A DNA stretch of 64,000 bases from Halodesulfurarchaeum sp. HSR-GB (GTDB taxonomy: Archaea > Halobacteriota > Halobacteria > Halobacteriales > Halobacteriaceae), in assembly GCF_031432215.1 (NCBI RefSeq), contig NZ_JAVKGN010000001.1, positions 930,001 through 994,000 of the forward strand, given 5' to 3'. The notes under the pieces are model-generated. The model was given only the letters and a program-made list of their open reading frames with translations. It ran no database searches and was not told where the DNA came from. The translations under genes and the position numbers were made by a program. This document shows positions 1 through 54,248 of this stretch, piece after piece; position 1 is the first letter of the stretch, and every line of letters begins with the position of its first letter.

Positions 1-1
1 G

Positions 2-673
2 CGTGAGATTTTCGACCAAGAGACCACCGAGGAGAGTGAGGGTGGCAATGGCGAGGCGATGTCCTTTGGTATGGCGATCAAAGACGCTCGGTTCTGGATC
101 CTGCTCGTCGCCATGACCGCGGCGTCCTTTTCCTTTACCGGCTTCCAGCAGAACTTCTCGTTGATTCTGGTTCAGGGACTGGTCGAGAACGCCGGCTACT
201 CGGAGGGTTTCATCACGGGCACTGTGGTCCCGACCTTCCTCTCGATCAATTACGTGTTCATGGCGGCCGGCGCGATCTTCTGGGGCCGGATCATGGATTA
301 CCTCGGTGGCCCCTTCCGGACGCTGATCCTCGTCTATGGGATCCCGGCCACCCTCTATGCGGTCTTCTTCCTGAGCTACACCATGTTGATCCCCGTGTTG
401 ATCGTCGGGGCCCTGATCTTCTTCGGCCTGGGCGGTGAGCCCCCGGTTCACTACGCAGCGGTTCCGACCTTATTCGGTCGGGAGAACGTCGGCAAGCTCC
501 TCACGTACATGAACGCCGTGTCGGTCGGGATGGGGATGTTCTTCGGTCCGATCGTCTTTGCCTTCATTAACGACGTGACGGGTGTGTATCTGGCGTCCTT
601 CGGGGTCGCGATCGTCATCCGCTTTGTCGGTGCGGGTGCCGCCGCAGTTGGCACGAGAGTCGCTTCCCAGTAG
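2..673 (+). CDS. MFS transporter, C-terminal part (5' end outside window)
   Basis: The reading frame is open from base 2 without a start codon, so the gene begins upstream of the window; 223 codons are visible. A hydrophilic linker rich in Glu and Gly is followed by about six hydrophobic helices. There are typical MFS loop features such as the G-R-x-x-D-Y-L-G-G stretch after the second visible helix. This fits the C-terminal half of a 12-helix major facilitator, and the overall character is like oxalate/formate antiporter-type carriers. The gene lies directly before a UroD-like methyltransferase on the same strand, so it may move a substrate or product of the methyl-corrinoid pathway. That link is inference from position only. 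The substrate cannot be read from the sequence. Confidence 0.85.
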   Translation, partial: REIFDQETTEESEGGNGEAMSFGMAIKDARFWILLVAMTAASFSFTGFQQNFSLILVQGLVENAGYSEGFITGTVVPTFLSINYVFMAAGAIFWGRIMDYLGGPFRTLILVYGIPATLYAVFFLSYTMLIPVLIVGALIFFGLGGEPPVHYAAVPTLFGRENVGKLLTYMNAVSVGMGMFFGPIVFAFINDVTGVYLASFGVAIVIRFVGAGAAAVGTRVASQ

Positions 674-784
674 GGGACACCGGCCCGTTCTCTCCTCTGG
701 ATTTCGCTCGTGCCGTAACCGACTGATTTCTTCGATCACTTATTGAAAAAAGCTAAGAGGGTTCCATCGCTCCGAATATGTGGT

Positions 785-2062
785 ATGGTCAGCCTTGACT
801 CCTGGGCGAACGGAGAGCACGTCGAGTTCGAAAGTCCCGAAGCGGCGGAAAAGTACAAACGAAAAGCAAAGCGGCTCAAAGACGCCGTCGTCGGTAATAC
901 TCCCGATCGAGTGCCGGTGCGGGTGCGGAGTGGGTATCTCGCCGGCCACCAGGCCGACGTGACCTTCGAGGAGATGATGTACGACGCCGAGAAGGCCGCG
1001 GCCGCCTACCGGGAGTTCCTCGAGGAGTTCGACCCGGACAACAACCACGTCACGATCGAGCCCCCGGGAAAACCGGCGGACATCCTCGACTACAACCTTT
1101 ACAACTGGCCCGGAAACGGCGTCGACGAAAATTCCGGCTTCCAGGCACTCGAAGGCGAGTACATGACGGCGGAGGACTACGACGAGTTCATCGCCAATCC
1201 GGAGTCGTGGTTCCTGAAACAGTACATGACCCGGGTCTTCGGAGAACTCGATGGCCTCGGCAAACTGCCGAATTTCTCCCTGAGCCAGGAACTCCCGATG
1301 ATCAAGCCACTGACCCTCCCCTTCGGAGATTCGGAGGTCCAACACGCACTCGAGTCGCTGATGGACGCGGGTGATGCGATGGCCGACTGGCAAGAGAAAG
1401 TCGGCGTCGTTGCCTCCGAGGCCGAGGCGAAGGGGTACCCCTCGTTCTCGGGCGGGTACTCCAAAGCGCCATTCGATACGATCGCCGACATGCTCCGTGG
1501 CACCCGCAACGCGATGATCGACATGCGAAAGCGCCCCGAGAAGATCAAGGCGGCCACCAGGGCAGTCACGCCGATGATGAAAGACCTCGGAACGTCCGGG
1601 CCGGAAGCGACCGGTTCCCCCTTCGTCCTCTTTGTCCTCCACAAGGGAGCGGATAACTTCATGTCCCAGGACGACTTCGAGGAGTTCTACTGGCCGACGC
1701 TGAAGGAGACGATGGAGGCCGTGATCGACGAGGGTTACGTGCCGCTCATGTTCGCCGAAGGGACGTACGACGCCCGACTCGAGTTCCTCGCGGAGAACCT
1801 CCCCGAGGGGCCCACGGTGTGGATTTTCGACCGCACCGACGTCCGTGAGGCCCACGAGATCCTGGGGGACACGGCTACGGTCGCGGGTGGCGTTTCGACC
1901 TCGCTCATGAAGACCGCCGAACCCGAGGCCATCCAGACCCACTGTGAGGAACTCGTCGAGGACATCGGTCGGGAGCGGTTCATCCTGACGACGAGCGCTC
2001 GAATCTACCGAACGCCGAAGGAGAACATCCACGCGATGATCGATTCGGTCAAAGAGAACTAG
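785..2062 (+). CDS. UroD-family corrinoid methyltransferase 1
   Basis: A 425-residue protein of the uroporphyrinogen decarboxylase fold. The family includes corrinoid methyltransferases (MtaA, MtbA, CmuA, aryl-ether O-demethylase MT-I) besides true heme-pathway UroD. The block H-K-G-A-D-x-F-M-S followed by F-Y-W-P, and a later F-A-E-G-x-Y block, are shared with the two paralogues at 7939 and 10086. The His-x-Cys zinc motif of MtaA is not seen at the equivalent place. The start at 785 is chosen over 743 because it aligns with the paralogue N-termini (V-S-L-D-S-W against V-S-L-E-N-W). It is the only paralogue on the plus strand. The context of corrinoid, MeTr and RACE genes argues for methyl transfer between a small methylated compound and a corrinoid protein, rather than heme synthesis. 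Confidence 0.85.
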   Translation: MVSLDSWANGEHVEFESPEAAEKYKRKAKRLKDAVVGNTPDRVPVRVRSGYLAGHQADVTFEEMMYDAEKAAAAYREFLEEFDPDNNHVTIEPPGKPADILDYNLYNWPGNGVDENSGFQALEGEYMTAEDYDEFIANPESWFLKQYMTRVFGELDGLGKLPNFSLSQELPMIKPLTLPFGDSEVQHALESLMDAGDAMADWQEKVGVVASEAEAKGYPSFSGGYSKAPFDTIADMLRGTRNAMIDMRKRPEKIKAATRAVTPMMKDLGTSGPEATGSPFVLFVLHKGADNFMSQDDFEEFYWPTLKETMEAVIDEGYVPLMFAEGTYDARLEFLAENLPEGPTVWIFDRTDVREAHEILGDTATVAGGVSTSLMKTAEPEAIQTHCEELVEDIGRERFILTTSARIYRTPKENIHAMIDSVKEN

Positions 2063-2250
2063 GGCGTTCCACAGTCCACGACGCGTTTGTTTCGACTGAA
2101 GAACGCTTCTCCCGTGGGGCGAAACCCAGGAGTCCGCTTCTGTCCGCTTGGGACGGGGTCCCGCTGATTGGTGATCGGTTCACTGACCCTCGGGATCTGA
2201 TCTAGTCTCGGTTGACTGGGGCAATTTGCTACTCGACTGCCGATCTCGGT

Positions 2251-2281
2251 ACTGACGTGAGGGCTCACGCTTTTAGTCAGT
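2251..2281. terminator. Hairpin in convergent intergenic region
   Basis: A perfect 6-bp inverted repeat CGTGAG/CTCACG with a 2-base loop lies at 2256-2269 and is followed by CTTTTAG. Flanking ACTGA/TCAGT extends the stem around a bulge. It sits between two convergent genes (stop codons at 2062 and 2389), so a bidirectional terminator is the simplest reading. The rest of the 326-bp stretch 2063-2388 shows no convincing gene. Confidence 0.4.
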
Positions 2282-2388
2282 TAAATCGCGTCGATCAACC
2301 AGGCGCTTTCAGGTCATTCGACCGTCGCGACCGGAGAAAATCCAACCGGCCCCGATCAGAATCGTTCGCAGCTGGAAGGCCTGCTCAC

Positions 2389-3045
2389 TTACGCCTCGCC
2401 CAGCCACTCCTTGGCCAGGCGAACTCCGCTGGGAGCGTCAGTTTCGTAGCCATCCGCACGTACGTAGTTTCGCACGTCGTCGGTGATCTGCCCGCCACCG
2501 ATCATGATCTTGGTACCGTCACGAAGCCCGTCCTCGTCAAACTCCTCGACCAGGCCGGCCGCTTCGAGCGCTTCGACGGTCTCCTTCATGGAGTCGAAGG
2601 CGGCGGTGAGAAAGCCACTGAGTGCGATGATATCGGGGTCGTTCTCCTCGACGGCCTCGACGAACGTCTCGATCGGCACGTCGACGCCGAGATCAACCAC
2701 GTCAAAGCCGTTGAGGTCGAACATGAAGAAGACCAGGTCCTTGCCGATGTCGTGGATGTCGTCCTTGACGGTGCCGAGGACGATCGTCCCGAGTGTCTCA
2801 CTCTCGTCCGCGTCCATCTCGTCGACGAGCAGATCGGAGATTTGATCGATGATGTCCCCGGCGTACATCAGGTCCGGGATGAAATACTCCTCCTCGTCGT
2901 ATCGGTCCCCGACGATGGCCATCCCCTTCTTCAGATCATCGAGAACGTCCATTGGATCCTCGCCAGCGTCCAACCGCTCGTTGGCCATCTCGATTGCTCG
3001 TTCCTCCTCTAGATCCGCCAGTGCTTGTACGAATTCCTCGGACAT
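2389..3045 (-). CDS. Corrinoid protein 1 (methyl carrier)
   Basis: A 218-residue two-domain corrinoid protein of the MtaC/MtbC/MttC type. The N-terminal four-helix cap domain spans about residues 1-80. The B12-binding Rossmann domain carries D96-x-H98-x-x-G101, where H98 would be the lower cobalt ligand, followed by the S-G-F-L and G-G-G-Q-I-T blocks that line the nucleotide tail. It is nearly identical to the protein at 9237-9905 apart from the last residues and scattered changes. It would carry the methyl group as methyl-Co(III) between the UroD-like enzyme and the AcsE-like methyltransferase. It is divergently transcribed from that methyltransferase over a 188-bp spacer. A TTTAA-containing TATA-like box lies about 37 bp upstream of the ATG, consistent with a very short leader. 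Confidence 0.95.
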   Translation of the reverse strand: MSEEFVQALADLEEERAIEMANERLDAGEDPMDVLDDLKKGMAIVGDRYDEEEYFIPDLMYAGDIIDQISDLLVDEMDADESETLGTIVLGTVKDDIHDIGKDLVFFMFDLNGFDVVDLGVDVPIETFVEAVEENDPDIIALSGFLTAAFDSMKETVEALEAAGLVEEFDEDGLRDGTKIMIGGGQITDDVRNYVRADGYETDAPSGVRLAKEWLGEA

Positions 3046-3233
3046 CGGTAACCCGCTTGAAAAGTGGTCGGGTCGTTCCTTAAAGATTGCGGGGTAGCGC
3101 CCCTGTGATCGGGGAATTGTACATTTTCAGTTGTTCTATCCCAAATCAATTTTGTTCCGGTGAGTGCCAGTCGGCTTCGCGTCGCCTAACACAATCCTTT
3201 TAGAGACTGGCTGAGTGGTTTCAGCCGGACAGC
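3046..3233. promoter_or_regulatory. Divergent promoter region, corrinoid 1 / MeTr
   Basis: A 188-bp spacer between the divergent corrinoid and MeTr genes. On the minus strand a TTTAA box at about 3079-3086 precedes the corrinoid ATG by 37 bp. On the plus strand CTTTTAGAG at about 3195-3203 lies 30-40 bp before the MeTr ATG. Next to the corrinoid start, an imperfect inverted repeat (CCGCTT-GAA-AAGTGG, one mismatch) takes the place of the perfect palindrome found at the second corrinoid gene. The first 15 or so bases upstream of the two corrinoid starts are also conserved. Confidence 0.5.
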
Positions 3234-4082
3234 ATGTCACTACAAACGACAGTCGAGGGAGCAGATTCGTCGCTCACGATCGACCGGACCGACCAGGTCC
3301 GGATCATCGGCGAGCGGATCAACCCGCGCCCGGAATCCGACCTGGCGGCAGCACTCGCGAACGAGGACATGGAACCGGTCCGGGAACTCGCGATCGAACA
3401 GGTCGAGAACGGGGCCGACCTGATCGACGTGAACGTCGACGTCGATGGCGTCGACAAGGAGACCGTCCTGCCGATGGCCGTCGAGGCCGTGGCCGATGCG
3501 GTGGACGTACCGATCGTCATCGACACGAACTACGACGACGCCGAGGCCCTCGAGGCGGCCCTCCAGGTCGCCCCCGGCAAACCCGTCATCAACTCGGTGA
3601 GCATGGAGGAAGCCTCCCGTGAGGCTATTCTCCCGCTCGTCGCCGAGTACGAAACCGCCGTCGTCGGCCTCACGATGGACGAGTCCGGCCCGCCGGACGA
3701 CGCCGAGACCCGGTTCGAACTGGCCGAAGCGCTCCTCGAGGAAGTCGAAGCGTATGACATCCCCCGTGAGGACGTCATCATCGATCCGATCGCGCTGCCC
3801 CTCTCCTCGAACTCGGACATCGGGTTCGAGATCCTCACGGCGATGGAACAGATCCGGGACGAACTCGGGAACAACATCACGCTGGGGCTGAGCAACATCT
3901 CCTTCGAGATGCCCGAGCGGGAGAAGATCAACGACCTCTATCTCGCGATGGCGATCCAGTCCGGCCTGAGCGTCCCGATCGTCAACGCCGGCGAGACTCG
4001 CGAGGCGATCCTGCTCGCCGACCTGATGATGGGACGGGACAACTTCGCGAAGCGCTTTTTGGGCTACTACCGCTCGAAGTAA
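3234..4082 (+). CDS. Methyltetrahydrofolate:corrinoid methyltransferase (AcsE-like)
   Basis: A 282-residue TIM-barrel, pterin-binding enzyme of the MeTr/AcsE type. Collinear with acetogen MeTr, the blocks are I-G-E-R-I-N at residues 25-30, D-V-N-V (pterin-binding Asp), V-I-D-T-N, I-N-S-V-S, G-L-T-M-D-x-S-G-P-P, I-D-P-I-A-L-P and L-G-L-S-N-I-S with the catalytic-site Asn. The length matches the family (about 260-280). The reaction moves a methyl group between the N5 of tetrahydrofolate and corrinoid cobalt. Here it would take the group off the corrinoid protein into the folate pool for oxidation or biosynthesis. It stands alone on its strand and diverges from corrinoid gene 1. It corresponds to the MT-II component of O-demethylase systems. 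A DHPS enzyme is ruled out by the MeTr-specific blocks. Confidence 0.9.
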   Translation: MSLQTTVEGADSSLTIDRTDQVRIIGERINPRPESDLAAALANEDMEPVRELAIEQVENGADLIDVNVDVDGVDKETVLPMAVEAVADAVDVPIVIDTNYDDAEALEAALQVAPGKPVINSVSMEEASREAILPLVAEYETAVVGLTMDESGPPDDAETRFELAEALLEEVEAYDIPREDVIIDPIALPLSSNSDIGFEILTAMEQIRDELGNNITLGLSNISFEMPEREKINDLYLAMAIQSGLSVPIVNAGETREAILLADLMMGRDNFAKRFLGYYRSK

Positions 4083-4111
4083 CGCCCCGCAGCGAATTTT
4101 CTCGCGGCGAC

Positions 4112-5308
4112 TCACGTGGCCACGTCCGGCATCGAGAGGAACACGCCGAGTCCCTGGAACGCGAAGATGAACATGGCGACGCCGAATCCGACGGTGTAGC
4201 CGTAGGCCCCGATCGTCGGGCCGACGATGAGCGGGAGACCAACAAAGCCGCCGATGTTCATCATCGCCGTCATGAGTCCCGAGGCACCACCGACGTGCTG
4301 GGCCTGGACGGGATCGTTCGCTACTCGGGGAAGCCAGGCCGGCACCTCCATGATGATCGGCAGGGCCCCGCCGGCCAGGTAGCCCGCGACGGCCGTCCCG
4401 ACGAACAGCACGCTCGTGTTGCCGGTCAACCAGACGGGGAACTCGACGACCCCGAACCCGACCGCGGCGATGACCAGCGCCGCCTTCCGTCGATCGAGTC
4501 GATTCGCGATGGTCGGAATCGAGAGCGAACCGAAGACCCCGGCGTAGGTAATCATCGAGGCGATCTGGCCGCCGGTTGCCTGCTCGATGCCGTACACCTC
4601 GTTGAGCGCCACCGGAAACTCCCCCTGGATCGCGACCATCCCGCTGAAACCCGCGAAGACCGCGACGGCAGCGATCCAGGCGTTTTTACTTCTGACTGCC
4701 CGCTGAATGCCCTCGAAGAGTTTCGCGGGCGGGAGCGATTTCCCGGGCGGGGCGTCCTCGACGATCAGGTAGAAGGCAAGCGCCAGGGCCAGGACGACCC
4801 CGGCGAAGACCAGGTTGCCGGTCCGCCAGGACGGGAGAGCGGGCGCGATGACGAGTCCGGTCGAGAGCCCGGCCATCATCCCGGTGTTGTAGATGCCGGT
4901 CGCGAGCCCGGTCTCGTCGGGCGGGAACCAGACGTTGACCAGTTTCGGCAGGTTCGGCATCACCATCCCGAGGCCGATTCCGATGGTGATCATCGCGGCG
5001 AGCAGGAGCCCGAACCCGCCGCCCAGCGATCGGAGCAAAAATCCCACGGCCGCAATCGCGATCCCCATCGAGGCCGCCCGCTTGATCCCCAGTCGGTCCG
5101 CGAGCATCCCGCCGGGAATCGACAGGAGCCCGGCCACGAGAAACGGAACGGTGAGTGCGGTCCGGAACTGCTGTGGACTCAGTCCGTAGCTCTCCAGGAG
5201 CTGGGGCTGGAGGGTTGGCATCGTATACCAGCTCATCGCGATACTGAAGAAGGCGGCCCAGGCGATAGCCAGGACTGCCCACCGTCTCCGGGATGGGGCG
5301 TCTGTCAT
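4112..5308 (-). CDS. MFS transporter
   Basis: A complete 398-residue major facilitator with 12 predicted helices. The signature loop after helix 2 (G-G-M-L-A-D-R-L-G-I-K) is repeated in degenerate form in the second half (A-N-R-L-D-R-R-K). It resembles the CynX/NarK-like branch of MFS, but the substrate is not readable. It is convergent with MeTr (29 bp between the genes) and divergent from the SSS symporter operon. A CTTAAG-type TATA-like element on the minus strand lies about 25-30 bp before the start. Its position inside the methyl-corrinoid module suggests import of a methylated compound or export of its demethylated product (inference). Confidence 0.9.
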   Translation of the reverse strand: MTDAPSRRRWAVLAIAWAAFFSIAMSWYTMPTLQPQLLESYGLSPQQFRTALTVPFLVAGLLSIPGGMLADRLGIKRAASMGIAIAAVGFLLRSLGGGFGLLLAAMITIGIGLGMVMPNLPKLVNVWFPPDETGLATGIYNTGMMAGLSTGLVIAPALPSWRTGNLVFAGVVLALALAFYLIVEDAPPGKSLPPAKLFEGIQRAVRSKNAWIAAVAVFAGFSGMVAIQGEFPVALNEVYGIEQATGGQIASMITYAGVFGSLSIPTIANRLDRRKAALVIAAVGFGVVEFPVWLTGNTSVLFVGTAVAGYLAGGALPIIMEVPAWLPRVANDPVQAQHVGGASGLMTAMMNIGGFVGLPLIVGPTIGAYGYTVGFGVAMFIFAFQGLGVFLSMPDVAT

Positions 5309-5460
5309 TGTCGTGGAAATGGGACGGCCCTCTTAAGGAGTTTTGCACTCCACCCGGCGGTGGCTCCGGCCCGAAATCAAACTCGACCATGTGGGAATCG
5401 GTAACAACAATTAAGATGGGGCGTTCCAAACTGGGACTCAGGAGGTTTGCCAATCACGTC

Positions 5461-5694
5461 ATGGTCAACACCAAAAGCACGAACGGGTCACTGGCGTTCG
5501 TTTTCGTCCTGGTGATCATTGTCACGATACTCCACTATGACTTCTGGAACTGGGGGGCCGAACAGTTCACGTATCTGGCCTGGACACAGGAGTTCCTCTA
5601 CCGGTTCGCGTTCGTCACCTTCCTGTTCCCGGTCCTCAACTATCTGATCGGTCGATTCGCCTGGCCGATGCCGAAGTCGGGGGGTGAGGACTGA
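5461..5694 (+). CDS. Small membrane subunit of SSS symporter (DUF3311-like)
   Basis: A 77-residue protein with two hydrophobic helices, about residues 10-26 and 42-62. Small two-helix proteins of this kind commonly precede sodium:solute symporters. The start at 5461 is preferred over in-frame upstream codons because a good Shine-Dalgarno sequence (GGAGGT at 5441-5446) precedes it. The stop is four bases before the symporter ATG, so the two are co-translated. An ATTAAG box near 5409 may be the promoter. Confidence 0.8.
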   Translation: MVNTKSTNGSLAFVFVLVIIVTILHYDFWNWGAEQFTYLAWTQEFLYRFAFVTFLFPVLNYLIGRFAWPMPKSGGED

Positions 5695-5697
5695 GGA

Positions 5698-7197
5698 ATG
5701 GTCGAATCCGACACCATCCTGATCCTCGCCATCATCGCGGCCTACCTGGCCGGGACGCTACTCATCGGCTATCTCGCCTGGCGGGTCCTCGAATCGGACG
5801 TCGGTGACCTGTTCACCGCCTCGCGAAGTCTGGGGCTCGTGGCCACGGCGATGGGGATTTTCGGGACTCAGGTAACTGCCTTCGGGATGATGGGGGCCCC
5901 GGGAGCCGCCTACGGACTCGGGTACTCCGCGTACGGGTATATCGTCGGAATGGCCCAGTTCATGGCCGCTGCGGCCTTCTTCGTGATCGGTTACCGCGTG
6001 TGGCTGCTCGCCGAAGCGTTCGATCACGTCACGCCGGTGCACTTCTTCGGGGACCGATTCGAGTCCTACATGCCGCGTTTTGTCATCTCGATCGCCCAGA
6101 TCATCTACGAGATCCAGTACATCGTGATCGGCGGCATCGGGGCCGGGATCATCTTCGAAGTCGTGACCGACGGGTTCATTCCCTACTGGCTCGGCGCGTT
6201 GATCATCCTGTTCATCACGACCTGGGTGGCTTACGCCGGCGGGCAGCGGGGGAGCGCCTGGACGAACATCTTCCAGGGGGCGCTCATGCTCGCCGTGCTG
6301 GTCCCGATGATGTACATCGTCTACAACGCACTCGGTGGTGGGCAGGCCATCCTCGACCAGCTCTCCCCACAGATGATCTCGCTCGGCGGTGCGGCGGTCC
6401 AGGACCCCAAGGTCTGGATCCCGTTCAGCCTGATCGCGACGGGGATGTCAAACGGCGTCATCGCCCACGTGCTGGTCAAGAACATGTCCGCGGACAGCCC
6501 GCAGACGATCAAGCGCAACACCTACATCTACCCCGTGCTGGTCGGCGTCCTCTTCTTCATGACCATCTCGCTTGGGGTCTGGGGCAGTATCGCACTCCCC
6601 GGGCTGGAGGGCAATGCGGTCGACCGGATCCTGCCGGCGCTGGCGGAGATGTACGCCCCGACCTGGATGGTCGGCCTGATCGCCGCGGGGATCTTCGCCG
6701 CGATCATGACCTCCTGGGACGGCATGCTGCTGGCGACCTCCTCGATGTTCTCCGATGACATCATCAAGCCGATCGCCAAGATGCAGGGCTATGAGCTCTC
6801 CACGCAGTGGGAGAACCGCTTCAGCAAGTTCTTCATCCTGGTGGTGGCCGTGGTCACCTACCTGCTCGTGCTCGCCCGTCCGGACACGATCCTGGCGGTC
6901 GGCGTGTTCGCGTTCACCGGCTTTGCGACGCTGGTGCCATCCTACTTCGCCGCCCTCTACTGGAAGCGGACGACGAGCACGGGTGTGGTGGCTTCCGTCG
7001 TGATCACGACCCCGGTCGTCGCGCTCTGGGCCTTCGAGGTCCTCCCGGCCTGGACGACCTTCGGCTTCCACTACTCCGCGCCGTCGCTGCTGCTCGCGAG
7101 TGTGCTCGTGGTCGTCGTCTCACTGCTGAGTAGTCCGCCTTCGAAGGAGATCGTCGAGCAGAACTTCGAGGTCTTCGATCGGGTCTTCTACGACTAA
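5698..7197 (+). CDS. Sodium:solute symporter (SSS family)
   Basis: A 499-residue protein with about 13 transmembrane helices. The N-terminal region has the SSS-like pattern G-D-L-F-T-A-S-R-S-L-G followed by T-A-M-G-I-F-G-T-Q-V-T-A-F-G, which contributes to the sodium and substrate sites. A W-x-G-M-L-L-A-T-S-S-M stretch in helix 8 corresponds to the second conserved SSS signature. Family members take up organic acids, amino acids, proline, betaine or choline; the substrate here is unknown. It is translationally linked to the 77-residue partner upstream. Its place among corrinoid methyltransferase genes makes a methylated solute an attractive but unproven substrate. It ends convergently with the reactivation-domain gene. 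Confidence 0.9.
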   Translation: MVESDTILILAIIAAYLAGTLLIGYLAWRVLESDVGDLFTASRSLGLVATAMGIFGTQVTAFGMMGAPGAAYGLGYSAYGYIVGMAQFMAAAAFFVIGYRVWLLAEAFDHVTPVHFFGDRFESYMPRFVISIAQIIYEIQYIVIGGIGAGIIFEVVTDGFIPYWLGALIILFITTWVAYAGGQRGSAWTNIFQGALMLAVLVPMMYIVYNALGGGQAILDQLSPQMISLGGAAVQDPKVWIPFSLIATGMSNGVIAHVLVKNMSADSPQTIKRNTYIYPVLVGVLFFMTISLGVWGSIALPGLEGNAVDRILPALAEMYAPTWMVGLIAAGIFAAIMTSWDGMLLATSSMFSDDIIKPIAKMQGYELSTQWENRFSKFFILVVAVVTYLLVLARPDTILAVGVFAFTGFATLVPSYFAALYWKRTTSTGVVASVVITTPVVALWAFEVLPAWTTFGFHYSAPSLLLASVLVVVVSLLSSPPSKEIVEQNFEVFDRVFYD

Positions 7198-7215
7198 AAT
7201 TCGCTTCTTCTACTC

Positions 7216-7884
7216 TCAGGCCATCGTTTTCGCCCCGGCGTAGGGGCACTCGGCCAGAATCTCACAGTCCGCACAGGAGAGCAGAAACTCCGCCTGCTCG
7301 ATGTCGGGGCCGACGCCGATGGTGAACGTCAGGGTCTTTCGCGGTTCGGTGTAGGTCCCCTGGAGCGTACAGTCGATCTCTTCGGTCGGGAGGGCCTCGA
7401 AGACGTACTCGCGGCGCTCCAGCGGCCAGCCGTCGTCTTTCGTGCCCGGGGCGTACACCCGAGTCGTGTTCCAGCCCCGCTCGTCGGTCTCGGCCCGGAT
7501 CGCTTCGAGCATCGCCTCCCTGGCGTCCTGGAGTGCGGCGTTTTCCAGTGCGTCCCAGAGGAGCGCGTCGAACCGGGAGAGCTCGTTCGTCGCCGCGGGA
7601 TCCTCCCCGAGGGTCAACACGCCGGTTGCGAGGTGACTGGCGGAAACGAGTTCCGCCGGCGGGTCGTATCGCTCGATCACCGATTCCTGGGTCGGCTCGA
7701 TCAGGTACAGCCCTCGCGGGTCGATCGAGGCGACGACCTCCTCGCTCAACGTCTCGATTCGCGTTCGAGTGGCGGCGCCCGATTTCGCGGCGAGCCACTG
7801 GGCGAAGGGCGGCTGGGTTTCGAGCTGTTCGAGGTCGAGTTCGACGGAGATGTCCCGCACCACGACGGGCTCGCCGATTGACAT
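7216..7884 (-). CDS. MetH reactivation-domain-like protein (stand-alone)
   Basis: A 222-residue soluble protein. The block Y-A-P-G-x-x-D-D-G-W-P-L-E, then P-R-K-T-L-T-F-T-I-G-V-G, then a C-terminal Cys cluster (C-A-D-C-x5-C-P-Y) follows the order seen in small 'B12-dependent methionine synthase activation domain' proteins of anaerobic bacteria (R-Y-S-P-G-Y-x-D-W-P-L, P-K-S-x-S-x-x-x-G, C-x-x-C-x-x-x-x-C-P-Y). Those are encoded beside corrinoid methyltransferases. The start at 7884 (MSIGEP) is preferred to 7893. It is in line with the UroD2 gene and transcribed the same way, 54 bp downstream of it. A role in keeping the corrinoid protein active, or in handling the methyl-corrinoid, is inference. 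The assignment rests on recalled motif order, not on an alignment. Confidence 0.6.
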   Translation of the reverse strand: MSIGEPVVVRDISVELDLEQLETQPPFAQWLAAKSGAATRTRIETLSEEVVASIDPRGLYLIEPTQESVIERYDPPAELVSASHLATGVLTLGEDPAATNELSRFDALLWDALENAALQDAREAMLEAIRAETDERGWNTTRVYAPGTKDDGWPLERREYVFEALPTEEIDCTLQGTYTEPRKTLTFTIGVGPDIEQAEFLLSCADCEILAECPYAGAKTMA

Positions 7885-7938
7885 ACGCCACATACGGGAC
7901 CGAACTGATAAAAAGGGTTCTCCCGGTTCGAAACGGCG

Positions 7939-9240
7939 CTATCGGTTCTTCGGCGCGTCCATCATCGCCTTGACGTTCTCGGGCTTTGCCTCGTCGAGGC
8001 CCACGCCCGGGGAGAGGACGAACCGGTTTCGGCCCATCCGCTCGATCAGGTCCTGGCTGTACTCGGTGACCGCTTCGGGCTCCCTGGTGTTCAGGAGTCC
8101 CGTCGAGACGTCGCCCGCGATGGTGACGTACTCGGGGAGGGTCTCCCGCACCAGTTCGAGGTCCGTGTCCTGGAAGTGCCAGATCATCTCGCCCTCGGGG
8201 AGGTCACTGATCGTCTCCAGCCGGGACGTGTAGCGGCCTTCGGCGAACAGCCAGGGCACGAGATCCGCCTCGGTCAGCGCCTCGATCACCTGGCGGAGCT
8301 GTGGCCAGTAGAACGTCTCGAACTCCTCGCCGGACATGAACCCGTCCGCGCCCTTGTGCAGCGGGATGAAGACGAAGGGGTTGTTGTTCACGTGCGCGGA
8401 GGTGATCCCCATCTCGATGGCGATGGGCACAAGCCGGTCGACAGCCTCCAGAAGCGTCTCCGGTCGGCGTTTGAGGTCCATCATGATCGCGTGGGTTCCC
8501 CGTACCATGTCACCGAGCATGTCGTAGGGCGCGAGGGTGATCCCGCCGACGGACTGGGGGTAGCCCGCGCCGACGATCTCCTCGACGGTCCCGCCGATGA
8601 GCTGTTGCCACCGCATCGCTTCCTCGCCAGCGTCGAGGAGGTTCTGCAGCGTTTCTCGCATGGGCGGCATGCCGAAGGGCAGCAGGTAGGGATGAACCCC
8701 GGCGATCCCGGCGGTCAGATTCGAGAACTGCGGGAAGTGAGCCATGCCGTCCAACTCGCCGAAGACCTCGGGCAGGTACTGTCGGATGAAGAAGTCACTC
8801 GGATCCGTGAAGAAGTCCTCGTAGTCCTCGACGCCCATGTACTCCCGCTCGCGCGCCTGGTAGACTGTCTCCGGCGAGGAGCCGTCCCCCGGCCAGTCAA
8901 AGCCCTGGTAATCGACGATCTCCAGGGCCGTCGCTGATGGGATCAGCGAGGCGGCCCAGGGAAACAGGTCCGGCTCCAGGTCGTCGACGAACGTCAGGAG
9001 CGAGTCCTGCAATTTCTCGCCCTCGTACATCGCCTCCTCGGGCGTGTACCCGGCGTGGAAGACCGGGTAGAACGTCGAGAGCAGGTTGACCGGGACCCGG
9101 TCCGGATCCGCGCCGCGGAGCGCATCGACCATGCGCTTCGCTCGCCGCTGATAGTCCGCCTTCGCGTCCTCGTCGGCAAAGTCGATTCCATCGCCACGCT
9201 GCCACGTCTCCAGGGTCGGCCCTGCCGGCTCGTCGCTCAT
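7939..9240 (-). CDS. UroD-family corrinoid methyltransferase 2
   Basis: A 433-residue UroD-fold methyltransferase paralogous to those at 785 and 10086. It shares the H-K-G-A-D-G-F-M-S...F-Y-W-P block, the W-L-F-A-E-G-R-Y block and a conserved C-terminus ending A-P-K-N-R, which is also the end of the third paralogue. The start at 9240 is set by a 4-bp ATGA overlap with the stop of corrinoid gene 2. The pair is therefore translationally coupled and very likely forms a functional methyltransferase-corrinoid unit. The MetH-activation-like gene follows downstream. It probably transfers a methyl group from a small substrate to the corrinoid protein; the substrate is unknown. Confidence 0.9.
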   Translation of the reverse strand: MSDEPAGPTLETWQRGDGIDFADEDAKADYQRRAKRMVDALRGADPDRVPVNLLSTFYPVFHAGYTPEEAMYEGEKLQDSLLTFVDDLEPDLFPWAASLIPSATALEIVDYQGFDWPGDGSSPETVYQAREREYMGVEDYEDFFTDPSDFFIRQYLPEVFGELDGMAHFPQFSNLTAGIAGVHPYLLPFGMPPMRETLQNLLDAGEEAMRWQQLIGGTVEEIVGAGYPQSVGGITLAPYDMLGDMVRGTHAIMMDLKRRPETLLEAVDRLVPIAIEMGITSAHVNNNPFVFIPLHKGADGFMSGEEFETFYWPQLRQVIEALTEADLVPWLFAEGRYTSRLETISDLPEGEMIWHFQDTDLELVRETLPEYVTIAGDVSTGLLNTREPEAVTEYSQDLIERMGRNRFVLSPGVGLDEAKPENVKAMMDAPKNR

Positions 9241-9905
9241 TGTGCGGCCTCCACCGTCTTGAGCCACTCCTTGGCCAGGCGAACTCCGCTGGGAGCGTCA
9301 GTTTCGTAGCCATCCGCACGAACGTAGTTTCGCACGTCGTCTGTGATCTGCCCGCCACCGATCATGATCTTGGTGCCGTCACGAAGTCCGTCCTCGTTGA
9401 ACGCTTCGACCAGGCCAGCCGCTTCGAGGGCCTCGACGGTCTCTTTCATGGAGTCGAAAGCGGCGGTGAGAAAGCCACTGAGCGCGATGATATCGGGGTC
9501 GTTCTCCTCGACGGCCTCGACGAACGTCTCGATCGGCACGTCGACGCCGAGATCGATGACCTCGAAGCCGTTGAGGTCGAACATGAAGAAGACCAGGTCC
9601 TTGCCGATGTCGTGGATGTCGTCCTTGACGGTGCCAAGCACGATGGTCCCGAGCTTTTCACCGTCTTCCATCTCCATCTCGTCGACGAGCAGATCGGAGA
9701 TCTGATCGATGATGTCCCCGGCGTACATCAGGTCCGGGATGAAATACTCCTCCTCGTCGTATCGGTCCCCGACGATGGCCATCCCCTTCTTCAGATCATC
9801 GAGAACGGCCATCGGAGCCTCGCCAGCATCTAACCGCTCCTTGGCCATTTCGATCGCTCGTTCCTCCTCGAGGTCCGCCAGTGCCTGTACGAATTCGTCT
9901 GACAT
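9237..9905 (-). CDS. Corrinoid protein 2 (methyl carrier)
   Basis: A 222-residue MttC/MtaC-type corrinoid protein, almost identical to corrinoid protein 1, including the D-x-H-x-x-G cobalt-ligand motif. Differences cluster at residues about 77-83, around 190 and at the extended C-terminus. The start at 9905 (MSDEF) matches the start of the paralogue; an in-frame ATG ten codons upstream would place the promoter palindrome inside the gene. It is coupled to UroD2 by an ATGA overlap. It has a strong TATA box about 38 bp upstream and a perfect palindrome between TATA and ATG, so it heads a regulated corrinoid-UroD2-activation-domain transcription unit. Confidence 0.95.
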   Translation of the reverse strand: MSDEFVQALADLEEERAIEMAKERLDAGEAPMAVLDDLKKGMAIVGDRYDEEEYFIPDLMYAGDIIDQISDLLVDEMEMEDGEKLGTIVLGTVKDDIHDIGKDLVFFMFDLNGFEVIDLGVDVPIETFVEAVEENDPDIIALSGFLTAAFDSMKETVEALEAAGLVEAFNEDGLRDGTKIMIGGGQITDDVRNYVRADGYETDAPSGVRLAKEWLKTVEAAQ

Positions 9906-9913
9906 CAGTAATC

Positions 9914-9932
9914 CAGGTGAAACATTCACCTG
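9914..9932. promoter_or_regulatory. Perfect palindrome (operator candidate) at corrinoid 2
   Basis: CAGGTGAA-ACA-TTCACCTG is a perfect 8-bp inverted repeat with a 3-base spacer. It ends 8 bp before the corrinoid 2 ATG and lies downstream of the TATA box, so it would cover the predicted transcription start. A protein bound here would block initiation. Confidence 0.6.
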
Positions 9933-9937
9933 CATTA

Positions 9938-9950
9938 GATTTATAGTTTT
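9938..9950 (-). promoter_or_regulatory. TATA box of corrinoid 2 operon
   Basis: On the minus strand AAAACTATAAATC is a near-consensus archaeal TATA element centred about 38-40 bp upstream of the ATG. That predicts a start point some 10-14 nt before the codon, inside the palindrome at 9914-9932. Confidence 0.65.
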
Positions 9951-10085
9951 GGGGAGTTGAGCGGCTCAGGCTCCCGAGAACGGCAGTTACACTTGGACAA
10001 ACACAATTGCACCGAACTGGCACAGCGGCCGACACCCGTCACCGGCACATCCCGAAAGCTCGACCGCAAAAAGGAACGTCGGTTC

Positions 10086-11381
10086 TTACCGGTTTTTCGG
10101 CGCGTCGATCATCGCCTTGACGTTCGCCGGTTCGGCCTCGTCGAGAGCGACCCCCGGGGCGAGGATGAACCCGTCCGGGCCCACGTCATCGATGAGTTCC
10201 TCACAGTACTCCGTGACCTCCTCCGGCGTCTGTGTGTTCAGCAGGGAGCTGTGGACGTTGCCGGCGATGGCCACTTGATCGCCGAGTGTCTCTTTGGCCT
10301 GGACCATGTCGGTCTGGTCGAACTGCCAGACGATATTGCCCTCTGGCTGGTCGGCGATCACGTCGAGCCGGGAGTTGTAGCCGCCCTCGGCGAACAGCCA
10401 CGGGACCAGCCCCGCGTCGAGGAGTCCCTCCATGACTTCCCGGAGCGGGCCCCAGTAGAACTCCTCGAACTCCTCGGCGGACATGAACCCGTCGGCACCT
10501 TTGTGCAGGGGCATGAAGACAAGCGGGTTGCCCGCGCCCTGGGCCGACCGAATGCCCATGTCGATCATCTTCGGGATGAGCGATTCGGTCGCTTCGAGCA
10601 GTTCGTCCGGGTTTCGCTTGAGGTCCATGGACGCGCCGTGGGTGCCACGGAGGGTGTCCGCGATCACGTCGTAGGGAGCTTTCGAGAAGCCACCGAACGA
10701 CCGGGGGTAGCCCTGCTCGATCAGTCCCACCGCCGAGCCTTCGACGGCCTCGTGCCACCGGAGCGCCTCTTCGCCGGCCTCCATCAGGGTCTCCAGTGAC
10801 TCCTGGACCTCCGGAAGTCCGAAGGACAGCGCCATCAGGTGGATGTTCGGAATCTCCACGAGGTCGGTGAACTTCGGTAGCTGGCGGAACCCCTCCAGCT
10901 CGCCGACGATCTCCGGGATGTACTCCCGGAGCCAGAAGTCAGTCGGGTCCTGGACGAAGTGCTCGTACTGGTCCGGCCCCATGTAGTCGTCTTCCAGCGC
11001 CTGGTACCCCGTCGTGGGCGAGGCGCCGTCGCCCGGCCAGGCGTAGAGCTTGTAATCGAGCATGTCGAGCATCTTCGCCGAGGGCAGCAGGGTCGCGGTG
11101 GTCTGCTGGCCGTCCGGTTCGAGGTCCGTGATCGTCTGCTCGAAGGCGTCACCCAGCGCTTCCGCGTCGTTCATCGCGGTCTCGGGGGTGATACCGGCGT
11201 GGAAGACGGGGTAGAAAGTCGCGCTCAGCACGGTCGGGATCTGATCGGGCGTCCCGCCGCGAATCGCGGTTGCGATTCGGCCGGCCCGCTCCTGATAGGC
11301 CTCGCGTGCTTTTTCGTCCACGAAGTCGATGCCAACGCCCTGTTCCCAGTTCTCGAGGGATACGTCCATTTCGTCTGTCAT
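10086..11381 (-). CDS. UroD-family corrinoid methyltransferase 3
   Basis: A 431-residue UroD-fold methyltransferase, the third paralogue. It has the H-K-G-A-D-G-F-M-S-A-E-E-F-E-E-F-Y-W block, L-F-A-E-G-G-Y, and I-A-G-N-V-H-S-S-L-L (C-I-S-G-N-V-P in bacterial relatives). The C-terminus E-P-A-N-V-K-A-M-I-D-A-P-K-N-R is shared with paralogue 2. It has its own TATA box and a leader of roughly 80 nt with an inverted repeat, unlike most haloarchaeal genes. It lies downstream of the RACE gene on the same strand. An alternative start is four codons downstream (MDVSL). The different sequence of each paralogue suggests different methyl donors or one MT-I plus alternative MT-II roles; this cannot be settled here. 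Confidence 0.9.
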   Translation of the reverse strand: MTDEMDVSLENWEQGVGIDFVDEKAREAYQERAGRIATAIRGGTPDQIPTVLSATFYPVFHAGITPETAMNDAEALGDAFEQTITDLEPDGQQTTATLLPSAKMLDMLDYKLYAWPGDGASPTTGYQALEDDYMGPDQYEHFVQDPTDFWLREYIPEIVGELEGFRQLPKFTDLVEIPNIHLMALSFGLPEVQESLETLMEAGEEALRWHEAVEGSAVGLIEQGYPRSFGGFSKAPYDVIADTLRGTHGASMDLKRNPDELLEATESLIPKMIDMGIRSAQGAGNPLVFMPLHKGADGFMSAEEFEEFYWGPLREVMEGLLDAGLVPWLFAEGGYNSRLDVIADQPEGNIVWQFDQTDMVQAKETLGDQVAIAGNVHSSLLNTQTPEEVTEYCEELIDDVGPDGFILAPGVALDEAEPANVKAMIDAPKNR

Positions 11382-11420
11382 GTGTTAGTTGTGTTGGGTG
11401 TTCCGTCGTTCGGTCGGTGG

Positions 11421-11449
11421 CCAATCGCCGGGGGTGACCGGGCGATTGG
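11421..11449. promoter_or_regulatory. Inverted repeat in leader of UroD3
   Basis: CCAATCGCC and GGCGATTGG form a perfect 9-bp inverted repeat separated by 11 bases, 40-68 bp upstream of the UroD3 ATG and downstream of its TATA box. It would sit in the transcribed leader, where it could act as an RNA hairpin or a regulator site. Confidence 0.5.
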
Positions 11450-11485
11450 ATCCGTTCTCCCAATCAGATGTTCGATTGAAACGTA

Positions 11486-11496
11486 CTTATAATTTT
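11486..11496 (-). promoter_or_regulatory. TATA box of UroD3
   Basis: Minus-strand AAAATTATAAG, just 9 bp past the RACE stop codon and about 105-110 bp before the UroD3 ATG. It implies an unusually long leader for a haloarchaeon and separate expression of UroD3 from RACE. Confidence 0.55.
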
Positions 11497-11505
11497 GTAG
11501 TGATC

Positions 11506-13428
11506 TCACAACGCATCCTCGGCCCCACGGGTGGCCTCGACGCGGTCTTTGACCCAGGGATACCGATCGTAGTCCCGGTGTGGGAGATACATCGACTGGG
11601 CGAAGGCGTCGTGGAAGCCGTCCCAGGCTGCCAGTTCGACGTAGGAGACTTCCTCGACGATCCGCTCGGCTTCGGTCTTTGCATCGTCGTTGAGCAGTGC
11701 GTACATCGCGCCGTATCCCGCCGCGTTGCCCAGGAACTCCACGTCCCCGGCCCCGACCTCGGGGTACAGGCCCAGCAGCTTCGCGGACTCCGGATCGATG
11801 TAGTTCCCGAACCCGCCGGCCATGATCAGCTTGTCGACTGTCTCGATCTCGGCCGCCTCGAGCAGGACCGAGATGCCGGTCTGGATCGCGGCCTTCGCGT
11901 TCTGGATGTCCCGAATGTCCCCCTGGGTGACCACGATGGCCTCCTCGATGTCCGCCTCGTCGGTGCCGAAGAGGACGAACTCTCGACTCCCGTCCTCGGT
12001 GTCCCGGACCCGGCCGTGTCCCTCCTCGGGGTCGACCAGTCGTCCGCGGCGATTGATCGCCCCGACGAGGAATAGCTGGGCGACGATGTCGATGATCCCC
12101 GAGCCACAGATCCCGATCGGGGTCCCGTCATCGATGATATCGAGTTCGGGCTCCCAGGTATCGGGATCCAGCGTGACCGCCTGGATGGCCCCCGGTTTCG
12201 CTCGCACGCCGTGGGCGATCTCGGCCCCTTCGAGTGCCGGGCCCGCCGGTGCGGACGCCACGTAGGTCTCCTCCGGCCCCGAGACGGCGATCTCGCCGTT
12301 GGTCCCGATGTCGATCACGATGGCAGTCTCGTCGCTGTCGAGCACGTCGGAGACCAAAAGGTCCGCGACGAAGTCCGGCCCGACCCAGCCACCGATGATG
12401 GGCAGCCAGGACACCATTGCCCCGGGGTTCGTTTCGAGGTCGAGTTCCCGGGCTTTCGTCTGGAGGATGGCCTGGTTGGCCGGGACGTACGGATTGGCCG
12501 CGACCGGGCCCGCGTCGATGCCCAGGAAGAGGTGATGCATCGCCGTGTTGCCCACGAAGACCGCCTCGTAGATCTCGTCCTGTTCGATCCCCGCCTCGGC
12601 GACGACCTCCTCGATGCTGTCGTTGATCCCGCCGATGATCTCGTCCTGGAGTTCGGTTTTTCCTTCCGGCGATCGCGTGCTGTGTTGCACCCGGCTGATG
12701 ATATCGCCGCCGTGGCTGCTCTGGGGGTTGAGCTTGGAGCTAACGGCGACCACCTCCCCGGTCCGCAGGTCCAGGAGGTAGATCGCCAGCGTGGTCGTCC
12801 CGATATCGATCGCGAGGCCGTACGCGGGCCCGACTCGCCCGGGGTCGATCCCCAGCACCTCGGACTCCTGGAAGACCGTCGCGGTCGCCCGCAGGTCGCC
12901 GTCGTCGGTCTCCCCCTCGCGGATCGCCGTCGGGAGTGTCGTCAGCGCGAGCCGGTCGATCACTTCGGCTTCGACCCCGTATTCCGATTCGAGGGCCCCA
13001 AGCACTCGCTCGCGGTCCGGGAGCGTATCCTCCAGGGTCGGGGCCGGGAATTCGAGCTGATAGCGGCGGATCGCCGGCGCGTGCTCGAAGTCGATCTCCC
13101 GCCCTTCGGTCATCACGATCTCCCCCTCGCTGCGCGAGGATGCGGGCACGAACACCGAGACGTCCTCGGTCACCTCGGCCCGACACCCCAGCCGATAGCC
13201 GGCCTCGAGCTGGTCGGCGTCGAGGAGGTTTCGCTCGTCGTCATCGACTGGCGAGACGGCATCCGGGTCTTCGACCTGGACCATGCAGGTGCCACAGAGC
13301 CCGTTGCCGCCACAGAGTGCCTCGATACCGACGTTCCCTCGTTCCGCCGCGTCCAGAATCGTCTCGCCGGCCGCGGCCTCAACATCGACGTCCCAGGGGC
13401 CAAACGAGACCGTTAGATCACGCTCCAT
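11506..13428 (-). CDS. RACE protein: ATP-dependent reductive activator of corrinoid proteins (RamA/MtvD-type)
   Basis: A 640-residue activator. It has an N-terminal 2Fe-2S ferredoxin domain (C-x5-C-x2-C at L-C-G-G-N-G-L-C-G-T-C, with a fourth Cys about 35 residues on). A middle linker follows, then a large ASKHA ATPase domain with D-I-G-T-T-T, D-I-G-T-N-G-E and G-x-G-G-F-G-N phosphate-binding blocks. RACE proteins reduce adventitiously oxidised Co(II) corrinoid to Co(I) at the cost of ATP. The start at 13428 (MERDLT) is preferred; 13434 is also possible, and 13515 would add a tail absent from relatives. It is the only RACE gene here, so it must serve both corrinoid proteins. With UroD-type MT-I, the corrinoid proteins and MeTr it completes a four-component O-demethylase-like set. 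Confidence 0.93.
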   Translation of the reverse strand: MERDLTVSFGPWDVDVEAAAGETILDAAERGNVGIEALCGGNGLCGTCMVQVEDPDAVSPVDDDERNLLDADQLEAGYRLGCRAEVTEDVSVFVPASSRSEGEIVMTEGREIDFEHAPAIRRYQLEFPAPTLEDTLPDRERVLGALESEYGVEAEVIDRLALTTLPTAIREGETDDGDLRATATVFQESEVLGIDPGRVGPAYGLAIDIGTTTLAIYLLDLRTGEVVAVSSKLNPQSSHGGDIISRVQHSTRSPEGKTELQDEIIGGINDSIEEVVAEAGIEQDEIYEAVFVGNTAMHHLFLGIDAGPVAANPYVPANQAILQTKARELDLETNPGAMVSWLPIIGGWVGPDFVADLLVSDVLDSDETAIVIDIGTNGEIAVSGPEETYVASAPAGPALEGAEIAHGVRAKPGAIQAVTLDPDTWEPELDIIDDGTPIGICGSGIIDIVAQLFLVGAINRRGRLVDPEEGHGRVRDTEDGSREFVLFGTDEADIEEAIVVTQGDIRDIQNAKAAIQTGISVLLEAAEIETVDKLIMAGGFGNYIDPESAKLLGLYPEVGAGDVEFLGNAAGYGAMYALLNDDAKTEAERIVEEVSYVELAAWDGFHDAFAQSMYLPHRDYDRYPWVKDRVEATRGAEDAL

Positions 13429-13546
13429 CAGCATCCGTTTGGGCGAAACCGCTAATAGGTTTTGTGATGGTTTTACTAGACGGACAATACTGTCGACCAC
13501 CGGCATGGCTGCCAACCGTTATCTTCCCGGGGCTCGAGCATCCGGT

Positions 13547-15408: not shown

Positions 15409-16272
15409 ATGTCCAAACCCATCCCGCCCCGGTCGGCCGATCCGGAATCGGGCTATCGGGTCCCCGATCGGACCCCGCCCGAAGAGCCGACGAACCCGGT
15501 GCAGTCCGCCAGTCGGACGATGGAGCTGATCGAGGTACTCAAGGAGTCCGGTGGAGCCACGATCGGCGAGATCGCGACGGAACTGGATGTTTCGAAGGGG
15601 ACCGCCTCGAACTACGTGAGCACGCTTCGGGAGGAGGGGTTCGTGACGAAACTGGAGACCGGCGAGTTCGATATCGGGCTCCGGGTGCTTGACGTCTGTA
15701 ACAAGTCCATCCGCGAGCGAGAGCTGTTTACCGAAGGGAAACCCAAGATCGACGCCCTCGCCGAGGAGTTCGAGGGCGTCTTCACCGTAATGGTCCCCGA
15801 ACACGGCTATGGCTACTGTCTGTACTCCCGGACGACCTCGGATCTCATCTCGAAGAACCGGCTCGCCCAGGGGACCCGGCGATACCTCCACTGTAACGGC
15901 CCCGGACTCTCGATTCTCTCGGGTATGGAAACCGAAACCGTCGAGGACATCGTCGACCGGTACGGGCTGCTCTCCTGTGATACCGGCTGTGAGTTCGATT
16001 GCCCGCTCGCGAAGTACGCCCGCGAGCTCCCGGTCGAACGGGAGAGCCTCTACGATCGACTGGCGGCCATCGACGAGCAGGGATTTGCCGTAACCGACCA
16101 CGGACAGATCGCCTGTCTCGGGGTGCCGATCTTCGGTAGCGGCGATACCGTTGTGGGATCGGTCGGCGTGCTGGCCCCGCGACGGACGATTTACACGGAG
16201 CAGGCGGCCGATCCCGAACTCATCTCGGCCATGAAGGACGCGGCGACGGCCATCGGGATCAATATAGTGTAA
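15409..16272 (+). CDS. IclR-family transcriptional regulator
   Basis: A 287-residue regulator. The N-terminal winged helix-turn-helix at about residues 30-95 contains I-G-E-I-A-T-E-L-D-V-S-K-G-T-A-S-N-Y. The C-terminal IclR effector (GAF-like) domain spans about residues 110-287. The effector domain has an unusual Cys cluster, L-L-S-C-D-T-G-C-E-F-D-C-P, which could bind a metal or sense redox. It is followed 202 bp downstream by the Psr-like operon on the same strand and preceded by the palindrome at 15182. Control of the operon, of itself or of the nearby methyltransferase genes is plausible. Confidence 0.9.
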   Translation: MSKPIPPRSADPESGYRVPDRTPPEEPTNPVQSASRTMELIEVLKESGGATIGEIATELDVSKGTASNYVSTLREEGFVTKLETGEFDIGLRVLDVCNKSIRERELFTEGKPKIDALAEEFEGVFTVMVPEHGYGYCLYSRTTSDLISKNRLAQGTRRYLHCNGPGLSILSGMETETVEDIVDRYGLLSCDTGCEFDCPLAKYARELPVERESLYDRLAAIDEQGFAVTDHGQIACLGVPIFGSGDTVVGSVGVLAPRRTIYTEQAADPELISAMKDAATAIGINIV

Positions 16273-19673: not shown

Positions 19674-19677
19674 AACG

Positions 19678-36878: not shown

Positions 36879-37183
36879 GCCCTCCCGTTTATGAGTGTCC
36901 GGTCTGTGGGACCCGCCAGCCGGTGACCGACGTCGATCCGGACGAACCGCCGGCACGCCTTGGGAACACCCAGTGCCAGGGGGCCTATGGGGGCTGTCAT
37001 CGAACGACGACACTCGAACTCGTCCCCGAGGCCGACTGGGAGCCTGGCACCTGGGAACTCGGGTGCCCGCGCTGTGGCTACGAGACCGTCGCCTGGGGCG
37101 AGATGGGCTTTGGCCCCACGAACCGCTGGGCGTGTCCCGACTGTGGGAGCCGGATGCTGGTCGAGTCCCTCGAACGCCGCTGA
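36875..37183 (+). CDS. Zinc-ribbon protein (two to three CxxC)
   Basis: A 102-residue protein beginning at a GTG that overlaps the stop of the vWA gene by 4 bp. It has C-P-V-C, C-P-R-C and C-P-D-C motifs plus two other Cys (C-Q-G...G-C-H), enough for two or three zinc ribbons. It may be a metal-binding accessory of the AAA+/vWA pair. No known family. Confidence 0.7.
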   Translation: MSPPVYECPVCGTRQPVTDVDPDEPPARLGNTQCQGAYGGCHRTTTLELVPEADWEPGTWELGCPRCGYETVAWGEMGFGPTNRWACPDCGSRMLVESLERR

Positions 37184-37220
37184 TCCCAGGTTACATACTC
37201 GCTCACTGCGAGTCCGAAAC

Positions 37221-54238: not shown

Positions 54239-54248
54239 GACGAATACC

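Follow-up and report, generated by a model that had tools for sequence, protein, structure and literature searches.

The 64,000-nucleotide stretch of Halodesulfurarchaeum sp. HSR-GB analysed here (the window; G000:C1:930001-994000, from a haloarchaeal genome of 2.25 Mb) begins with a gene set for corrinoid-dependent methyl transfer. Its first 13.4 kb hold three UroD-fold proteins of the substrate-activating methyltransferase I kind (MT-I), two corrinoid proteins, an AcsE-type methyltransferase II (MT-II) and a RACo activase. All are intact, so that every component type of an O-demethylase-like system is present with the right domains, as an earlier reading of the letters alone (the original prediction) had claimed. 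The MT-I genes are UroA (743-2062, +; PF01208 E 7e-23, likely start near 785), UroB (7939-9240, -; E 6e-18) and UroC (10086-11381, -; E 1e-16). The carriers CorA (2389-3045, -) and CorB (9237-9905, -) have B12-binding domains, and MT-II (3234-4082, +), a methyl-corrinoid:tetrahydrofolate (H4F) methyltransferase of the AcsE/MtvA type, has a Pterin_bind domain (E 9e-29). The RACo-type reductive activator of corrinoid proteins (11506-13434, -) completes the set.

Three transporters, each with a Pfam match, are interleaved with these genes. The module opens with genes for an IclR regulator, a DUF1638 protein and MFS1, a transporter of the major facilitator superfamily (MFS), followed by UroA forward, CorA reverse, MT-II forward, MFS2 reverse, a small membrane protein forward and a sodium:solute symporter (SSS) forward. 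A 225-residue protein without a family, UroB, CorB, UroC and RACo then follow, all reverse. Only the C-terminal part of MFS1 lies in the window (59-673, +; MFS_1 E 7e-11, or 1e-21 for the whole gene, which starts 634 bases before the window). MFS2 (4112-5308, -; MFS_1 E 2e-40) has an orthologue, 68% identical, within the module of another haloarchaeon (G360), and the SSS gene (5698-7197, +) matches PF00474 at E 1e-31. The small membrane protein (5293-5694, +; likely start near 5461) is an open frame whose stop lies 3 bases before the SSS start, and it has no family match. The content of the extent first proposed, 1-13434, stands, but its start does not: the module begins about 2.5 kb before the window, with the rest of MFS1, the DUF1638 protein and the IclR regulator (L025 12491-15670). 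Likewise, the parts named in that inventory are all there, while the family-less gene at 7216-7893 and a second methyl-corrinoid system further upstream had gone unmentioned.

UroA, UroB and UroC score above the Pfam URO-D cut-off and far under the NCBIfam cut-offs for HemE, MtaA and MtaA/CmuA. Phylogenetic analysis of 51 sequences, including 12 haloarchaeal ones and built without MtvB, OdmB, VdmB and CmuA, places all haloarchaeal MT-I in one clade (support 100/98) surrounded by Dehalococcoidia paralogues (95/93). A CdmB plus MtoB clade (100/99) and a HemE/MtaA-like group (100/100) are both distinct from it. The phylogeny called for by the original prediction therefore separates the three MT-I from the HemE/MtaA-like group, within a tree that lacks some of the references it had named. 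That prediction had also held that a grouping with heme-pathway enzymes would contradict it, and this grouping is rejected (p-AU 0.0036). The idea that these are heme uroporphyrinogen decarboxylases placed beside corrinoid genes by chance, which draws on the Pfam name only, is almost certainly wrong: the proteins fall far beneath the hemE cut-off, the genome has its own HemE at C1:1293842, and the association with corrinoid genes is close in four genomes.

At the active site, the zinc motif HxCG of most MtaA-like tree members is replaced by FAE-G in the haloarchaeal proteins, by FE-G in MtoB and by FQG in CdmB, and UroB is entirely free of cysteine. His300 and Glu339 (UroA numbering; His293 and Glu332 in UroC) are kept in all MtoB and haloarchaeal rows, while CdmB, for which one sequence was compared, has Trp and Gln. 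Lack of the zinc HxC, together with the His/Glu pair, speaks against a thiol acceptor, and the pair would mildly favour a polar leaving group, for instance the oxygen of a methoxy group. A zinc-dependent thiol enzyme of the MtaA/CmuA type is ruled out for UroA-C by FAE-G in place of the zinc HxC...C. It is accordingly improbable that the UroD proteins act like MT-II, transferring methyl groups carried by the corrinoid protein to a thiol in the manner of MtaA and coenzyme M, or to homocysteine in methionine synthesis. The shared fold family is consistent with such a role: the AlphaFold model of UroC (mean pLDDT 90.8) has the UroD/MtaA fold, with MtaA 4ay7 as its top match by target-normalised TM-score (0.74), and dual roles are known for split methionine synthases that depend on B12 (PMC12478193). 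Three paralogues, accompanying transporters and occurrence in 4 of 392 genomes nevertheless misfit a housekeeping function.

Methyl halides are a rival substrate. Cdm-like dehalogenation would have the UroD proteins guide haloalkanes such as chloromethane or bromomethane to Co(I), with the methyl group passing to H4F. CdmB (9rui), the chloromethane methyltransferase of Acetobacterium (PMC13222342), is the best solved structure for both UroA (E 3e-32, the sole match at E <=0.1) and UroC (E 4e-28), although it is not among the fold-search matches of the UroC model (library up to April 2026). CdmB also lacks the zinc motif, the gene set of MT-I, corrinoid protein and MT-II parallels cdmBCA, and hypersaline sediments have been described as naturally giving rise to chloromethanes (PMC7284496). 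However, grouping the haloarchaeal clade with CdmB is rejected (p-AU 4.5e-4), UroA-C retain both polar residues that differ in CdmB, and a gas would not need the three transporters of the cluster. Methyl halides are thus an unlikely substrate.

The corrinoid carriers are closest to structures 4jgi and 1y80, the former of which we take to be the O-demethylase corrinoid carrier of Desulfitobacterium hafniense. Both CorA and CorB bear DIHDIG, the DxHxxG lower-ligand motif for cobalamin, and GGG motifs. They share 93% DNA identity, about as much as CorA shares with its orthologue in a congener (94%), and such near-identity points to recent duplication or gene conversion. The two carriers may therefore be interchangeable and serve all three MT-I, a suggestion drawn from their sequences. 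UroB starts within the CorB stop (ATGA), so the carrier and this MT-I are probably co-produced. The same order, corrinoid protein then MT-I, occurs in Archaeoglobus fulgidus (mtoC-mtoB, L083) and in a Dehalococcoidia metagenome-assembled genome (MAG; L007).

MT-II scores 248 bits against NF005719, whose cut-off is 259, and its nearest structures are AcsE (2yci, E 3e-41) and the D. hafniense MT-II (4o0q, E 3e-39). A tblastn search of the mto loci from A. fulgidus and its relatives found MtrH-type genes but nothing that matches this MT-II. Because this MT-II is of the AcsE type and not MtoA, the set joins an Mto-related carrier and UroD-type MT-I with a bacterial folate-type MT-II. The activase has all four RACo domains (Fer2, RACo_linker, Raco_middle and RACo_C_ter), with 3zyy as best structure (E 2e-102). 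The DUF1638 family has been linked to B12 reactivation through mutant fitness in Phaeobacter (PMC5764234). Additionally, MFS1 and AF_0008 share 33% identity; AF_0008 is the MFS gene in the mto cluster of A. fulgidus, and this cluster is reported to be upregulated on 2-methoxyphenol (PMC8359953). The A. fulgidus genome compared (G491) was recognised by its AF_0006-0013 gene order.

Conservation indicates that the module is not a chance assembly. In the congener (G006) the cluster is syntenic and its proteins are 92-99% identical, except MFS1 (80%) and the small membrane protein (84%). The ratio of nonsynonymous to synonymous substitution (dN/dS) between the two is 0.03-0.10 for the module genes tested and 0.17 for the gene at 7216-7893; the module genes are under purifying selection. 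Two genomes of another family, both in genus g80 (G317 and G360), carry the module with activase at 65-66% identity, UroC at 74%, UroB at 61-62%, UroA at 61% (G317 only), MT-II at 68-70%, CorA at 77-78% and DUF1638 at 56%, plus an MFS gene and an IclR gene. The prediction that such a set is unexpected in a haloarchaeon is borne out, since MT-I genes occur in 4 of the 392 Halobacteria genomes sampled. An independent MT-II search returned exactly the same four, at 1e-9 for random sets, though they represent two genera and not four independent events. Synteny, purifying selection, cross-family conservation and this co-occurrence together place the module beyond chance.

By module genes, the nearest named relative is a Halodesulfurarchaeum MAG (isolate GSL, L005; UroC 80%, activase 70%, CorB 76%). 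UroA, UroB and UroC are either orthologue groups that arose before the two haloarchaeal genera diverged or genes transferred as a set. A search of plasmids returned nothing beyond a distant UroD protein from Sporomusa and a HemE from Natronorubrum. An in-frame TAG in the G317 copy of UroA proved only apparent, being the ordinary stop codon of the gene. A gene for cis-3-hydroxy-L-proline dehydratase (L024 7334-8437) is found upstream of CorB and UroB in G360; its G317 counterpart is a fragment (L022 12202-12537) with an open reading frame read as transposase-like close by.

Among described families, MtoB and CdmB are nearest to the three MT-I. MtoB belongs to MtoABCD, the system for O-demethylation in Methermicoccus shengliensis and A. 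fulgidus (PMC8630106, PMC8359953). Common to this system and the haloarchaeal module are a UroD-family MT-I with the His/Glu pair and no zinc HxC at the catalytic cleft, a corrinoid protein (43-44% identical), a RACo-type activase (35%) and MFS transporters that include the 33% match. Unlike that system, the haloarchaeal MT-I fall outside the MtoB clade, their MT-II is AcsE-type for H4F where MtoA is MtrH-type for tetrahydromethanopterin, and three MT-I paralogues have near-identical carriers in common. CdmBCA of Acetobacterium dehalogenans likewise combines a zinc-free MT-I with a corrinoid protein and an H4F MT-II (PMC13222342), yet CdmB belongs to a separate clade and differs at the His/Glu positions, and in the module described here the enzymes are accompanied by transporters. 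The bacterial vanillate and veratrole O-demethylases (MtvABC, Odm, Vdm) of acetogens and Desulfitobacterium follow the same four-component logic, and the carrier and MT-II here lie near the D. hafniense structures 4jgi and 4o0q. Some of those enzymes contain zinc (PMC13222342), whereas the proteins described here have no zinc motif. The nearest tree relatives are UroD paralogues of Dehalococcoidia (L006, L007, G704, G705; 31-41% identity), of which the L007 MT-I adjoins a corrinoid protein gene. They differ in their bacterial hosts and in reaching 10-11 PF01208 copies per genome, mostly MT-I-like proteins of about 430-460 residues in the MAGs G704 and G705. A genome of another family in the same phylum (G574) encodes ten PF01208 proteins (L082); one of them, which adjoins a corrinoid protein, is closer to haloarchaeal MT-I (31-34%) than MtoB is.

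A second methyl-corrinoid system lies about 28-54 kb upstream of the window (C1:875697-902343; L102 13696-18438, L092, L093 1-6343). Its uptake and methyl-transfer genes encode a BCCT transporter, a third corrinoid protein, an MttB-family protein, an MtrH-family MT-II (MtgA-like, under the cut-off), a second RACo and a cupin. Its oxidation genes encode an FAD plus GcvT protein of the dimethylglycine/sarcosine dehydrogenase kind, EtfBA, FolD, a methylenetetrahydrofolate reductase (MTHFR)-family protein (one of two in the genome), Fhs and two formate dehydrogenases (FDH) above the Fdh-alpha cut-off. With an MttB-fold MT-I and an MtrH-like MT-II, this system resembles MtgABC and other glycine betaine methyltransferases, unlike the UroD-fold module: structures of glycine betaine methyltransferase (9yce/2qne) match its MttB at E 9e-116, and the trimethylamine enzyme does so at 3e-39. 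MttB occurs in 14 of the 392 haloarchaea, including all four module genomes, and lies within 6 kb of Fhs in all 12 haloarchaeal genomes compared, which suggests that oxidising methyl groups to formate is more widespread among haloarchaea.

This second system bears on whether the UroD proteins themselves demethylate quaternary amines, betaines or sulfonium compounds. Such osmolytes are plentiful in brines, the corrinoid proteins of the module also match MtgC/MtbC models (under the cut-off), and G360 has the hydroxyproline dehydratase gene upstream of its UroB. On the other hand, the genome already devotes a system of its own to such compounds, equipped with an MttB of the glycine-betaine type and a BCCT transporter, and no UroD-family MT-I acting on amines is known to us. 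A role of this kind for the UroD proteins is quite unlikely. Aryl methyl ethers, that is methoxylated aromatics, have about an even chance of being their substrate, and the share left after methyl halides goes to other methylated solutes. As to the methyl donor, which the original prediction held to be unreadable, the evidence tilts towards methoxylated aromatics rather than haloalkanes or thiols.

Taken together, the genes point to a cobamide-dependent demethylation system in which methyl-H4F is oxidised to CO2 and the electrons pass to sulfur compounds or dimethyl sulfoxide (DMSO), a reading to which we give a probability of roughly 0.6. Its components and carriers are well supported: the sequences establish the enzyme families, their intactness and conservation, the missing zinc motif and the co-occurrence of MT-I with MT-II. 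We infer its direction, substrate, physiology and coupling to sulfur respiration. In the proposed scheme, the MFS and SSS transporters would import a methylated, probably carboxylated compound, which UroA, UroB or UroC, each substrate-specific, would activate so that Co(I) on CorA or CorB accepts the methyl group. MT-II would then transfer it to H4F, while RACo and the probable DUF1638 helper would re-reduce carriers fallen to Co(II). Methyl-H4F would be oxidised to methylene-H4F by MTHFR and to formyl-H4F by FolD, then converted by Fhs to formate and ATP, with FDH releasing CO2. The claim that H4F is the methyl acceptor is strengthened by FolD, MTHFR, Fhs and a FolC-FolP fusion about 30-65 kb away in the same genome; the fusion gene makes folate a likely one-carbon (C1) carrier.

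The electrons could reduce sulfur, thiosulfate or DMSO, perhaps through a membrane molybdoenzyme at 16699-20760 (+). This candidate outlet has a PhsA/PsrA-like catalytic subunit, an Fe-S subunit and an NrfD anchor, and the first two keep the same position in the congener. An exit through nearby molybdoenzymes, as first suggested, is plausible given this set and the two FDH genes upstream. Halodesulfurarchaeum formicicum is reported to oxidise formate with elemental sulfur, thiosulfate or DMSO and to have tetrahydrofolate enzymes, which that main study of the genus explains by biosynthesis and the disposal of surplus C1 units (PMC5437934). Thus the final steps of the chain have already been reported for a relative; what is new is its entry.

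Several points weigh against this interpretation. With sulfur, H. formicicum reportedly did not grow on 13 other donors, a panel without methylated compounds (PMC5437934). Identity between the three MT-I and MtoB is only 26-28%, a grouping of their clade with MtoB alone is rejected (p-AU 1.9e-5), their Dehalococcoidia clade fellows have no known substrate, and the sampling of the tree is incomplete. A broader proposal is tentative, at somewhat under even odds: that some haloarchaea are anaerobic methylotrophs that use methoxylated aromatics (UroD) and glycine betaine (MttB) through H4F and formate to CO2 with sulfur respiration, by means of an undescribed MT-I clade that they share with Dehalococcoidia.

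To our knowledge, no corrinoid demethylation system has been described in the class Halobacteria. The open-access literature searched, a scope that leaves out most subscription journals, yielded no methoxydotrophic or corrinoid haloarchaea. The four-component logic is already known; the MT-I clade, its combination with this type of MT-II and the occurrence in Halobacteria are not described there. If the reading is true, sulfur-respiring haloarchaea live on methyl groups in salt-saturated mud, compete with methylotrophic methanogens for betaine-derived methyl and reach lignin-derived methoxy groups. Moreover, the large uncharacterised Dehalococcoidia MT-I clade gains a culturable relative in which to find a substrate.

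Further genes complete the picture of the locus. The protein encoded at 7216-7893 (-), of 219-225 residues, is 96% identical in the congener and ends in a cysteine motif, CADCxxxxxCPY. It has no match in Pfam, NCBIfam, PDB or viral contigs, and an AlphaFold model from two sequences was uninformative (pLDDT 36). By eye, its C-terminal half possibly resembles the activation domain of B12-dependent methionine synthase, making it a candidate corrinoid-activation accessory. An IclR-family regulator (15409-16272, +; IclR domains, with weak matches to BhcR and PcaR/PcaU/PobR models) could control the module or the adjacent molybdoenzyme; intergenic regions read by eye for a common operator motif gave nothing convincing. 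Further along, a second, divergent MttB-family methyltransferase (36960-38642, +; PF06253, 280 bits) adjoins ABC/FecCD transporter genes (38639-41040) that resemble a cobalamin or iron-chelate importer. Finally, translations alone indicate a second membrane-molybdoenzyme-like set at 51336-55516 (+), with an oxidoreductase bearing a twin-arginine translocation leader, an Fe-S protein and membrane subunits.

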